From the NCBI RefSeq assembly GCF_004194535.1, contig NZ_CP025781.1:1612001-1676000 (forward strand): 64,000 bases of DNA, in the 5' to 3' direction. The position numbers were made by a program, and so were the translations under genes. The stretch comes from Iodobacter fluviatilis. Its GTDB lineage: Bacteria; Pseudomonadota; Gammaproteobacteria; Burkholderiales; Chitinibacteraceae. The notes under the pieces were generated by a model. That model was not told the DNA's origin. It made no database searches and saw only the letters and a program-made list of their open reading frames with translations. Of the stretch, positions 2,821 through 42,470 are shown piece by piece (position 1 is the first letter of the stretch; each line of letters starts with the position of its first letter).

Positions 2821-3822
2821 ATGCGTCTTAAGTCTCTGCTCGCCGCCATCGCCCTCAGTACCACCTTGCCCGCCTTTGCCGACAGTACACTCCTCAATGT
2901 GTCTTATGACGTGATGCGCGATTTCTATAAAGACTACAACCCTGCCTTCGCCAAATACTGGAAAGCCAAATCAGGCGAAGACATCACCCTACAAATGTCG
3001 CACGGCGGCTCCAGCAAGCAAGCGCGCTCGGTGATCGATGGCCTGCAAGCCGATGTAGTCACCATGAATCAGCACAACGATATCGACGCCATCGCAGATA
3101 AAGCCAAGCTTTTGCCGGCCGATTGGGCCAAACGCCTACCGAATGACGCAGCACCTTTTACCAGCTTGCAAGTGCTGATCGTTCGCAAGGGCAACCCAAA
3201 AGGGATTAAGGACTGGAATGATTTAACCAAACCCGGCGTTGGCGTGATCGTGCCCAACCCAAAAACCTCGGGCAATGGCCGCTACACTTATCTGGCGGCA
3301 TGGGGCTATGCCGCAAAACTGCCGGGTGGCAATGATGCAAAAGCACGTGAATTTGTCGCCAGCGTATTTAAAAACATCCCAATACTAGATGCTGGTGGCC
3401 GCGCCGCCACCACCACCTTTATGCAACGCCAGATTGGCGATGTATTGGTAACCTTTGAAAACGAAGCCGAAATGATCGCCAAAGAATTTGGCCGTGGTCT
3501 GTTTGAAGTGGTTTACCCAAGCATTTCCATCGAAGCCGAGCCACCTGTCGCCATCGTCGATAAAGTGGTCGATAAAAAAGGCACTCGCAAACAGGCCGAG
3601 GAATATCTGAAATACCTGTGGAGCCCAGCAGGCCAAGAAATTGCCGCGCAAAACTATCTGCGCCCAAGAGACAAAGCCATCGCAGCCAAATACGCCAAGC
3701 AATTCCCAGCGATTAAATTATTCGCTATCGAAGAATTCGGTGGCTGGCAAAAAGCCCAAAAAACACACTTTGAAGACGGTGCAATTTACGACCAGATCTC
3801 AGCAAGCATTGCTAAGCGCTGA
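2821..3822 (+). CDS. sbp: Periplasmic sulfate-binding protein (copy 2)
   Basis: Second sulfate-binding protein, 333 residues, with a signal peptide of about 20 residues ending PAFA. It shares with copy 1 the LNVSYDVMRDFYKDYN start of the mature protein, [38 protein letters not shown] and the conserved [20 protein letters not shown] segment. This is the copy closest to cysT, 300 bp downstream across a block of repeats. The gap suggests either a separate transcript or a repeat-interrupted operon. Function in sulfate/thiosulfate capture is confident from family; ligand preference is not. Confidence 0.93.
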   Translation: MRLKSLLAAIALSTTLPAFADSTLLNVSYDVMRDFYKDYNPAFAKYWKAKSGEDITLQMSHGGSSKQARSVIDGLQADVVTMNQHNDIDAIADKAKLLPADWAKRLPNDAAPFTSLQVLIVRKGNPKGIKDWNDLTKPGVGVIVPNPKTSGNGRYTYLAAWGYAAKLPGGNDAKAREFVASVFKNIPILDAGGRAATTTFMQRQIGDVLVTFENEAEMIAKEFGRGLFEVVYPSISIEAEPPVAIVDKVVDKKGTRKQAEEYLKYLWSPAGQEIAAQNYLRPRDKAIAAKYAKQFPAIKLFAIEEFGGWQKAQKTHFEDGAIYDQISASIAKR

Positions 3823-11106: not shown

Positions 11107-12339
<1,233 letters not shown>

Positions 12340-24940: not shown

Positions 24941-24971
24941 AGCTTTGCTTGTAGACATTAAAGAGAAAAAA

Positions 24972-26348
24972 ATGAATTACCAAGGCAAACATTGCATCGT
25001 TGTGGGGTTAGGCGAATCGGGGTTTTCTGCTGCTAAGTGGCTGGCAGCTCAAGGTGCGCGCGTCACCGTCTGCGATACCCGCAGCACCCCGCCTAATCTA
25101 GAGCAATTGCATTCTGCCCATAGCCAGATTGAGCTGCGCCTAGGCGAGTTCAGCGAAACCACGTTTACCGATGCCGATGCACTGATTGTTAGCCCAGGCG
25201 TGCCGCTAGCAACACCTGCGATTGCCGCAGCCATCGCCCGTGGCGTACCAGCCCTTGGCGATGTGGAGTTATTTGCTCAAGCCATTGCTGGCTCCAAAGC
25301 CAAAGTGATTGCGATTACTGGCTCGAATGGTAAATCCACTGTCACCAGTATGGTTGGCGCAATGTGTAGTGCGGCGGGTTTAAACACCGTTATGGCAGGC
25401 AATATTGGCCTGCCGGTGCTGGATGCGCTAAGCCAGCACCCTGATGCCGAGGTGTTTGTCTTAGAGCTATCAAGCTTTCAGCTAGAAACCACTAGCTCAC
25501 TGAATGCACACGCTGCAGCGGTGCTTAATATCAGCGAAGATCACTTAGATCGTTATAAAAACCTAGCGCATTACGCCGCCACCAAGGCCAGTATTTTTGC
25601 GGGCACAGGCGTCATGGTGCTCAACCGCGAAGACGCTTTCTGCCGTGAAATGAGTCTTCCAGATCGCCAAGTCGTGTGGTTTGGCGCAGATACTCCCAAG
25701 ACCGCCGAGTATGGCTTAAGCGGTGAGGACTTTACCCTAAGCTACGGCGATGAAGCGCTGATGAGCGCCGCCAATTTACCGGTAGCAGGTTTACATAACG
25801 CGGTAAATGCCTTATCGGCCATCGCACTGTGCCGTGCCATTGGCGTAGCAACGGCCCCGATGCTGGCCGCATTGAAATCATTTACGGGCCTTGCGCACCG
25901 CGTTGAGTTTGTTGCCACTGTTAACGGCGTGAGCTACTACGACGATTCCAAAGGCACCAATGTTGGCGCTACTGAAGCGGCGCTCAAAGGCATGACTCGC
26001 CCCGTGGTATTGATTGCCGGTGGCGATGGCAAGGGCCAAGATTTCCGCCCACTGAAAACCGCTTGCGAGCGCATCTGCCGTGCCGTGATTTTAATTGGCC
26101 GTGATGCCTCTATTCTGGCCGAAGCCTTAAATGAAGCCCAATCACAATTTGTAGATTTTGATAACGAACAGCTACTGCCGATCTTGCAACTGCCCAACAT
26201 GGAAATGGCCGTGCAGTTTGCCAGCAACTTTGCCGAGAGTGGCGACGTAGTCCTGCTATCCCCTGCCTGCGCCAGCGTAGATATGTACCGCAATTATCAT
26301 CACCGTGCGGAAGTATTTATTGCGGCAGTGAAAGGATTAGAAAGCTAA
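24972..26348 (+). CDS. murD: UDP-N-acetylmuramoylalanine--D-glutamate ligase
   Basis: Adds D-glutamate to UDP-MurNAc-L-Ala. The start was set at ATG 24972 (MNYQGKHCIVVGLGESG), giving 458 residues; a TTG nine codons upstream lies at the repeat boundary. Motifs: GLGESG in the Rossmann N-terminal domain, SPGVPLATP, ATP loop ITGSNGKSTVTSM, LELSSFQLE and YYDDSKGTNVGATEAAL. The stop overlaps an ATG (TAATG) that begins the first of three mini-ORFs preceding ftsW. Confidence 0.97.
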   Translation: MNYQGKHCIVVGLGESGFSAAKWLAAQGARVTVCDTRSTPPNLEQLHSAHSQIELRLGEFSETTFTDADALIVSPGVPLATPAIAAAIARGVPALGDVELFAQAIAGSKAKVIAITGSNGKSTVTSMVGAMCSAAGLNTVMAGNIGLPVLDALSQHPDAEVFVLELSSFQLETTSSLNAHAAAVLNISEDHLDRYKNLAHYAATKASIFAGTGVMVLNREDAFCREMSLPDRQVVWFGADTPKTAEYGLSGEDFTLSYGDEALMSAANLPVAGLHNAVNALSAIALCRAIGVATAPMLAALKSFTGLAHRVEFVATVNGVSYYDDSKGTNVGATEAALKGMTRPVVLIAGGDGKGQDFRPLKTACERICRAVILIGRDASILAEALNEAQSQFVDFDNEQLLPILQLPNMEMAVQFASNFAESGDVVLLSPACASVDMYRNYHHRAEVFIAAVKGLES

Positions 26349-26668
26349 TGCGTCAACTATTCTCACAAACCGCTACTCGGTTATGCCCAACGATGCTTCG
26401 TAGGGATCAAATCCCTGCTAATCCGCTTTGCCTCTTTAAAGGTTTGGGGGACTGATGCGCCAGCTATTCTCACAAACCGCTATTCGGGTACGCCCAACGA
26501 TGCTTCGTAGGGATCCAATCCCTGCTCATCCGCTTTGCCTTTTTAAAGGTTTGGGGGACTGATGCGCCAGCTATTCTCACAAACCGCTATTCGGGTACGC
26601 CCAACGATGCTTCGTAGGGATCCAATCCCTGCTTATCCGCTTTGCCTCTTTAAAGGTTTGGGGGACTG
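26348..26668 (+). repeat. Three tandem 107-bp units, each a mini-ORF copied from the ftsW start
   Basis: ATG codons at 26348, 26455 and 26562, with ftsW at 26669, are spaced exactly 107 bp. Each unit encodes a 35-residue peptide beginning MRQLFSQT and ending LFKGLGD, and its TGA overlaps the next ATG as TGATG. The first ATG overlaps the murD stop as TAATG. The first ~25 bp of each unit match the 5' end of ftsW (MRQLFSQ). The rest contains an inverted GGGATCCAATCCC-type repeat. Units 2 and 3 are nearly identical; unit 1 is more diverged. Ribosomes leaving murD could pass through by termination-reinitiation. Confidence 0.95.
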
Positions 26669-27856
26669 ATGCGCCAGCTATTCTCACAAGCCATTAAGCG
26701 GCTACGCCCCAGTATGAGTGCCTACGATGAGGCGCTGTTCTGGTGCATTACCCTGCTGCTGACCATTGGTTTAGTGATGGTGTATTCCTCATCGATTGCG
26801 ATGGCCGAGGTGGATAAAGACACCGGCTTTAGTTCGAATTACTTCCTAATCCGCCATGTGGTTTTCTTGGCCGTAGGGATTGCTGCAGCTTTTATTTCGT
26901 TTTCTATCTCTACCAAAACTTGGCAGCAATACTCGCCGATGCTGTTTATGCTTGGCATCGTCTTACTGATCTTGGTACTGGTTCCGCATATTGGTAAAGA
27001 AGTAAACGGTAGCCGCCGCTGGTTGTCTTTAGTGGTGATTAATTTACAGCCATCCGAGCTGATGAAGCTGTTTGTTGTGCTCTATGCCGCTGATTACACC
27101 GTACGTAAAGCCATCAATATGAATGGCTCATTTTTAGAAAGCGTCACCAAAGTGCTATTACCGATGTTTATGGTGATGATGGTGGTAGGCGCTTTATTGC
27201 TATTAGAGCCAGATTTTGGCGCGTTTACCGTGATTACCGCCATTGCTATGGGTGCACTGTTTTTAGGCGGATTTAACTGGAAGCTATTTGCGGGGCTGTT
27301 TATGTTTTTGGGTGTGGCCTTTGTGGGCTTGGTAGTGAGCTCGCCTTACCGCATGCAACGCGTTTTAGGCTTTTTAGACCCGTGGAAAGACCCTTACGGC
27401 AAGGGCTATCAGCTGAGTCACTCATTGATTGCGTTTGGCCGTGGTGAATGGAGCGGCGTGGGCCTAGGTGCCAGCGTAGAAAAACTCTCCTACCTACCCG
27501 AGGCACATACCGATTTTTTGATGGCGATTATTGCCGAAGAATTTGGCTTTATAGGCGTTGCCGTTGTGATTTTACTGTTTTCATTTTTGATTTTCCGCGC
27601 CTTTATGATCGGCGTACAAGCCGCAAAATTAGAGCGCCACTGGCAAGCGCTAGCCGCGCAAGGCGTAGGAACTTGGATGGGTGTGCAAGCATTTATCAAT
27701 ATTGGCGTAAATATGGGCCTGATGCCCACCAAGGGACTAACCCTGCCACTGCTCTCGTTTGGTGGCTCGGGCATCGTAGCCAATTTAATTGCACTGGGTG
27801 TGCTAATGCGGATTGACTATGAAAGTCGTCAGTTGATTAGAGGGTATCGGTCATGA
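26669..27856 (+). CDS. ftsW: Septal peptidoglycan glycosyltransferase FtsW
   Basis: SEDS-family polymerase that works with FtsI at the septum. 395 residues with about ten membrane spans. Landmarks: GLVMVYSSS in the first span, GSRRWLSL (conserved periplasmic loop), [42 protein letters not shown] and [10 protein letters not shown] near the C-terminus. The start ATG overlaps the stop of the third leader mini-ORF (TGATG). Its own start region is the apparent source of the tandem repeat. Confidence 0.97.
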
Positions 27857-41579: not shown

Positions 41580-41655
41580 TGGTTGCGGGGACAGGACTCG
41601 AACCTGTGACCTTCGGGTTATGAGCCCGACGAGCTGCCAACTGCTCCACCCCGCG
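41580..41655 (-). tRNA. tRNA-fMet (CAT), copy 1
   Basis: 76 nt with encoded CCA. The anticodon is CAT in a stem closed by three G-C pairs (GGG-CTCATAA-CCC). Position 1 is C opposite A72 (unpaired), both hallmarks of initiator tRNA. The T arm ACAGGTTCGAGTCCTGT is intact. Confidence 0.97.
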
Positions 41656-41682
41656 ACGGGTGTCTTGTCTATATTGCATCAC

Positions 41683-41758
41683 TGGTTGCGGGGACAGGAC
41701 TCGAACCTGTGACCTTCGGGTTATGAGCCCGACGAGCTGCCAACTGCTCCACCCCGCG
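41683..41758 (-). tRNA. tRNA-fMet (CAT), copy 2
   Basis: Identical in sequence to copy 1 and separated from it by 27 bp of conserved spacer. Initiator features (C1-A72 mismatch, three G-C pairs in the anticodon stem) are present. Confidence 0.97.
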
Positions 41759-41785
41759 ACGGGTGTCTTGCTTATATTACATCGC

Positions 41786-41861
41786 TGGTTGCGGGGACAG
41801 GACTCGAACCTGTGACCTTCGGGTTATGAGCCCGACGAGCTGCCAACTGCTCCACCCCGCG
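41786..41861 (-). tRNA. tRNA-fMet (CAT), copy 3
   Basis: Identical to copies 1 and 2, again after a 27-bp spacer, so the tandem unit is 103 bp. It is probably the promoter-proximal gene of the three-gene transcript. Confidence 0.97.
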
Positions 41862-41984
41862 ACAGAGAGAGGCGGACTATAGCCTGTGTAGCGGCTAGCG
41901 TCAATGCTAATTCCAAAATTACCGCAAGAAACATGCCATGCCTCGCACCTATCTAGGGTCTGTTGACGGTTCATTCGCCATTGC

Positions 41985-42394: not shown

Positions 42395-42470
42395 TGGTTG
42401 CGGGGACAGGACTCGAACCTGTGACCTTCGGGTTATGAGCCCGACGAGCTGCCAACTGCTCCACCCCGCG
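42395..42470 (-). tRNA. tRNA-fMet (CAT), copy 4
   Basis: Identical to the three tandem copies but about 530 bp away, with its own terminator. C1-A72 mismatch and a G-C-rich anticodon stem identify it as initiator. Confidence 0.97.

Follow-up and report, generated by a model that had tools for sequence, protein, structure and literature searches.

The window analysed here is a stretch of 64,000 nucleotides from the 4.59-Mb genome of Iodobacter fluviatilis (G000 in our set), in which murD and ftsW follow one another on the + strand. murD (24975..26348) likely starts at an ATG, the mechanically called open reading frame beginning at a TTG at 24945, and its product contains the Pfam domains MurD-like_N, Mur_ligase_M and Mur_ligase_C. 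ftsW (26669..27856) encodes 395 amino acids that match the Pfam family FTSW_RODA_SPOVE (1.1e-104). The gap between the two genes is filled by three 107-bp units arranged head-to-tail on the + strand (26348-26668). Unit 1 (26348-26454), unit 2 (26455-26561) and unit 3 (26562-26668) each supply a mini-ORF, at 26348..26455, 26455..26562 and 26562..26669 respectively, and each mini-ORF has 35 codons and opens with MRQLFSQ. The first is joined to murD by TAATG, in which the ATG begins with the final A of the murD stop codon, and the next three links are TGATG, in the last of which the TGA of mini-ORF 3 overlaps the ATG of ftsW. The stop-start overlap expected of termination-reinitiation coupling is found, then, at 4/4 links in the window. 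Because 107 leaves a remainder of 2 when divided by 3, successive mini-ORFs lie in differing frames, and the chain hangs on unit length. Each unit closes with 17 nt resembling the end of murD (26438..26454, repeated at 26545-26561 and 26652-26668, + strand), which include a purine-rich, Shine-Dalgarno-like GGGGGA. For the array, Tandem Repeats Finder gives a period of 107, 3.2 copies, 95% matches and 0 indels; over 107 positions, units 1 and 2 differ at 8, units 1 and 3 at 7, and units 2 and 3 at 2. The initial annotation of this DNA had described three 107-bp units between murD and ftsW, 35-residue MRQLFSQ peptides and TAATG/TGATG links, a description that the open reading frames and Tandem Repeats Finder bear out exactly, and its suggestion of a tandem amplification that keeps the stop-start chain is supported by the anatomy of the array.

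How unusual is such an arrangement? Within 464 kb of G000, scanned mechanically, three small ORFs form a linked chain at six further places; small chained ORFs are common, so a chain by itself is weak evidence. Of the ten Tandem Repeats Finder rows from those 464 kb with a period of at least 30, however, only that of the array is 2 mod 3, the remaining nine being eight multiples of 3 and one tRNA array. An exact tandem array anchored at one end on the stop of murD and at the other on the start of ftsW is not a chance arrangement. Other repeats and elements in the window include three tandem tRNA-Met(CAT) genes with a 103-bp period (41580-41863, - strand) and, 0.5 kb from them, a fourth tRNA-Met(CAT) gene (42395-42470, - strand), the Rfam score being equal for all four. 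There is also a TGCTCC hexanucleotide repeat of 11 perfect copies (11337-11402) and an Rfam ALIL pseudoknot (RF01497; 62723-62839, - strand, 105.5 bits), a motif of frameshifting IS3-type insertion sequences.

Five states of the murD-ftsW junction are seen among nine species-level Iodobacter genomes, in a scan of Iodobacter and family genomes that accepted mini-ORFs with ATG starts lying about -4 to +8 of a stop. The unit is missing from 2/9 genomes, single in 6/9 and present in three copies in 1/9, namely G000. G001 and G003 have no unit, their murD TGA being followed by one base and then by the GTG of ftsW (+1). One 95-bp unit encoding 31 aa is found in G006 and G007, one 89-bp unit encoding 29 aa in G002, G004 and G008, and one 107-bp unit encoding 35 aa in G005. 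The start codon of ftsW is GTG in the two unit-less genomes (loci L045 and L047) and ATG in the seven unit carriers. All nine units of the seven genomes are open (9/9) and all end in TGATG (9/9), and their lengths of 89, 95 and 107 bp are all 2 mod 3. In the five genomes with an 89- or 95-bp unit (G002, G004, G006, G007 and G008), murD and the mini-ORF are joined at +1, as TGATATG or TAATATG, and the mini-ORF and ftsW at -1. The initial annotation had set relatives with chain-breaking units of random length as a test against its reading; in all seven genomes the opposite is seen.

Outside the genus, a scan of the junctions of the other family genomes found a mini-ORF unit between murD and ftsW in none of them (0 of 34), and the distance from the murD stop to the ftsW start in these genomes is -4 in 16, -1 in 13, and +4 or +5 in 5. 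From a search that matched 203 of 220 genomes we took, at the level of the order, the 60 stretches scoring highest outside the family, passing over G095 and G105. Distances were obtained for 56, the other four comprising one with no motif or match and three with no start codon by our rule. They run from -76 to +40 nt, with none beyond +40, under a rule that picks, of the possible start codons, the one closest to the stop of murD; this rule favours small values and would render an in-frame insert as a longer FtsW. Among more distant bacteria, 36/40 loci could be placed, two of these without a murD motif, and rough distances were large at L088 (175 nt), L105 (159), L097 (83), L094 (74) and L089 (43), so that longer murD-ftsW gaps do exist outside Iodobacter. 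Closer inspection covered L084, L088 and L089. At L088, from a Burkholderiales metagenome-assembled genome, the insert (~2823-3010) is bridged by a 59-codon ORF whose GTG overlaps the TAG stop of murD and which ends 5 nt upstream of the ftsW ATG; the insert also holds an internal 9-bp inverted repeat (AGGGAAATT). A comparable open frame arises in ~28% of shuffles, so the L088 ORF is only a lead.

What is the unit made of? Over their first 60 nt, the 89- and 107-bp units are identical at 37-43 positions to the ftsW heads of their own groups and have 41-45 positions in common with one another, a modest difference. The first 60 nt of the 95-bp units have 28-32 positions in common with the other units and 38-43 with own-group ftsW heads; as they are nearer to ftsW heads than to other units, they may have had a separate origin, or may have been overwritten by the ftsW head. 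The last 17 nt look instead to murD, whose 3' end they match at 13-16 positions when it is taken from G003, at 11-13 when taken from G001, and at 8-13 when taken from the unit's own genome. For example, the first tail in G000 matches the murD end of G003 at 15/17 nt and that of G000 at 10/17. Since this tail includes the purine-rich ribosome site, part of the likeness to murD could be convergence. The idea that the units were copied from the start of ftsW thus stands for the first part of the unit and falls for its last 17 nt. The 89- and 107-bp units are further linked by a TAIRV stretch that both encode. As for the middle, it differs among the three length classes, and no local alignment with murD or ftsW rose convincingly above shuffles; in the best case, G006 against ftsW, 35/500 shuffles were equally good. 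Judged from these comparisons, the unit is probably a copy of the ftsW head with a murD-like tail, so that the duplicated piece would be the junction, beyond the ftsW start alone. Most simply, a junction of murD tail and ftsW head would have been duplicated in tandem long ago, and the unit would be the back-junction of that event.

What gains and losses account for the present distribution? In a tree built from this one locus (murD, ftsW and the sequence beyond them), G000 and G005 are basal in the genus, G001 lies beside the 89-bp group, and G003 is poorly placed (support 57/42). A single clade of the seven unit carriers is rejected (p-AU 5.7e-37). Parsimony is tied at three changes, since a single gain with two losses costs as much as three separate gains, and the two genomes without a unit indicate that it is dispensable at the level of the genus. 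The G005 unit differs from unit 1 and from unit 2 of G000 at 8/107 positions each, as many as separate those two units, which would make the first doubling old if rates have been even. The mere two differences between units 2 and 3 point to a recent last doubling.

Our preferred reading, to which we assign a probability of about 0.6, is that each unit is a relay cistron, derived from a duplicated coupled gene junction, that passes ribosomes from murD to ftsW. The ancestral junction would probably have been a one-base overlap (TGATG or TAATG), by which ribosomes could finish murD and start again on ftsW. The 3' end of murD, with its Shine-Dalgarno site, and the head of ftsW would then have been duplicated in tandem, and the back-junction so formed would be a short ORF starting at the former ftsW start and stopping at the former murD stop, so that both ends of the insert would be coupling junctions. 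In G000 the unit would later have been amplified to three. Ribosomes coming off murD would terminate and reinitiate at each link, translating the three mini-ORFs in turn before ftsW; the peptides would be by-products, and the open frame between coupling sites would be what counts.

Is such a relay plausible? In reporters of six native gene pairs, a spacing of ~20 nt nearly abolishes coupling (PMC10666635), from which one would expect an insert of 90-320 nt to uncouple the genes unless it is bridged by an ORF; other studies, as reviewed in PMC12548453, report coupling over longer gaps and a weaker dependence on distance. Short upstream ORFs are described as able to supply ribosomes to the gene that follows (PMC12548453; PMC13255528). 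In experiments with E. coli, translation of a gene rose when it was preceded by a synthetic short ORF that carried an internal ribosome site beside its stop; removal of the start or stop of the synthetic ORF lowered the effect, a slight boost persisting with EGFP (PMC13255528). For five E. coli overlapping pairs, coupling is reported as strong in three, partial in one and absent in one (PMC6728339), so that overlap is no guarantee of coupling. ftsW has a Shine-Dalgarno-like stretch of its own, and may start independently of coupling. The initial annotation proposed that copy number could tune FtsW levels; would more units then mean more FtsW or less? Under the relay reading, added units would lower FtsW through losses at each reinitiation, or could raise it through delivery of ribosomes. 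A bolder extension, which we think unlikely, would have the junction act as a self-made translational dial, VNTR-like and working with no transcription factor, in which the fraction of ribosomes that reach ftsW, a cell-division gene, depends on how many relay ORFs there are. The dial would call for duplication of the junction at least twice, as the 95-bp units show no apparent relationship to those of 89 and 107 bp.

One might think, however, that the array is a neutral tandem duplication whose chain happens to be unbroken so far, with ftsW using its own Shine-Dalgarno site and the units idle. Duplicating a coupled junction readily yields a chain, the unit peptide is poorly conserved, and the unit-less Iodobacter genomes fit idle units. 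As for the survival of the chain, a random substitution breaks it with a probability of ~0.06-0.07, and in a simple per-substitution model the probability of no break is 0.13 with the 30 within-group parsimony substitutions, and 0.046 with 45, a total that adds the 15 separating the 89-bp from the 107-bp group. Less easily explained by neutrality are the three lengths, all 2 mod 3, which require either differences that keep the frame, as do the 6, 12 and 18 nt that separate them, or independent in-frame origins. The unit has also changed more slowly than the average silent rate of ftsW, at 7-8/107 positions against 53/191 4-fold sites for G000/G005 and at 8/95 against 48/187 for G006/G007. The same tendency is less clear when G002 is compared with G004 or with G008 (P 0.02-0.03), and it is not seen between G004 and G008, the closest pair, whose units change as fast as the 4-fold sites (6/89 vs 10/211). 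The contrast is weakened by the start of ftsW: over its first 60 codons, 4-fold changes number 4/29 for G000/G005 and 5/26 for G006/G007, a rate below the gene average. We find these patterns suggestive of selection for an intact chain, and consider the neutral account somewhat unlikely.

Could the product of the unit matter, as a peptide or as an RNA? A peptide of 29-35 aa with a function of its own, for example as a mimic of the cytoplasmic N-terminal tail of FtsW, would fit the presence in 9/9 units of MRQLFSQ, either intact or altered at one or two residues, and pN/pS is below 1 in eight of the ten within-group pairs (2-8 changes each) and above 1 in two. These values, 0.33-1.57, are nevertheless far above the 0.00-0.05 of ftsW (five pairs); mini-ORF 3 matches no Pfam family at E <= 0.001, the middle parts vary with length class as described above, and the conserved head may persist through exchange with the ftsW head. 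Mild constraint on the unit peptide may exist, but we hold a functional peptide to be improbable. We give even less credence to the units as an RNA structure or an ftsW promoter, as reported for mycobacterial MIRUs. The MIRUs between senX3 and regX3 show promoter activity (PMC4213456), and a longer MIRU-VNTR array accompanies more fpg1 mRNA (PMC2734929), so a transcriptional role is worth keeping in mind. The 107-bp units of G000 and G005 contain a short hairpin (AGGGATNNAATCCCT), with one difference among the G000 copies, placed in the loop; the hairpin is missing, however, from the 89- and 95-bp units, and the energies of folding are unremarkable (z -1.29 to +0.91 over nine genomes, -1.45 for the array). 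A consensus scan of 25900-26800 found no sigma-70-like promoter or terminator, and Rfam gave no match in that stretch at gathering scores. Nor does the array have the conserved peptide or switchable RNA of an attenuator leader, as the peptide varies, the folding is ordinary and no terminator-like site is seen. Least credible of all is a mobile or dispersed repeat, or an artefact of assembly. Tandem arrays are prone to mis-assembly, but the copies differ at 2-8 of 107 positions, which makes a duplicated assembly error unlikely, and single units occupy the same place in six other genomes. A search of G000 with the unit at E <= 0.001 returned the three units and the ftsW head only, one further match being weak (E 0.8). 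The hairpin pattern of the 107-bp units had no exact match in viral_contigs, and its matches with mismatches in G000, 7 and 8 in number (units included), barely exceeded the 4 and 6 of a reversed control; on these results a mobile element was rejected as a candidate.

If the relay reading is correct, the murD-ftsW junction would be a natural case of an insert between coupled genes that is bridged by short ORFs, the peptides seemingly immaterial, and the bridge would be made of the genes' own ends, no mobile repeat being involved. The species, which have 0, 1 or 3 units, would then form a ready series for the loss of signal at each termination-reinitiation step, and the same series would serve the question of selection on murD-ftsW coupling. 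More generally, duplication of gene ends could create small ORFs that annotation overlooks or takes for genes.

How does the array compare with known systems? Among the open-licence PMC papers listed by our searches, judged by titles and the openings of abstracts, we found no description of mini-ORFs at murD-ftsW. With overlapping gene pairs (TGATG or ATGA), the array has in common a one-base stop-start overlap at every link in the window; such pairs, however, are usually two full genes, whereas in Iodobacter a series of short ORFs without recognised function lies between genes. A likeness is also seen to bicistronic designs and nfORF boosters, described as a nonsense short ORF with the ribosome site of the next gene beside its stop (PMC13255528). 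Those boosters are synthetic and single, whereas the Iodobacter chain is natural, has up to three members, and is placed after a full gene.

The initial annotation knew of no tandem leader peptides in dcw clusters; a precedent in layout does exist in the mycobacterial MIRUs, of which three 77-bp units lie between senX3 and regX3 in strain H37Rv, and two of 77 and one of 53 bp in CDC1551 (PMC4213456). MIRUs are described as small units that insert at start codons; they lie between co-directional genes and contain an ORF coupled to the gene downstream (PMC12548453). Iodobacter likewise has short units in tandem between co-directional genes, each with an ORF that overlaps the next start, here with a -1 overlap. 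By simple arithmetic, 77 and 53 are 2 mod 3, as are the Iodobacter lengths of 107, 95 and 89, whereas the fpg1 array has units of 55 and 79 bp (PMC2734929), which are not. MIRU copy number varies at some loci (PMC2734929), as it does among the nine Iodobacter genomes. The two differ in dispersal, since MIRUs are reported at 41 places in M. tuberculosis (PMC2734929) and the Iodobacter unit is found at one locus at E <= 0.001. They differ too in that MIRUs seem mobile and couple at -4 nt (PMC12548453), whereas the Iodobacter links are -1 nt and the unit appears to be built from the flanking genes. By layout and by published description, then, we regard the Iodobacter array as close to the MIRUs in architecture, yet do not class it as one of them.
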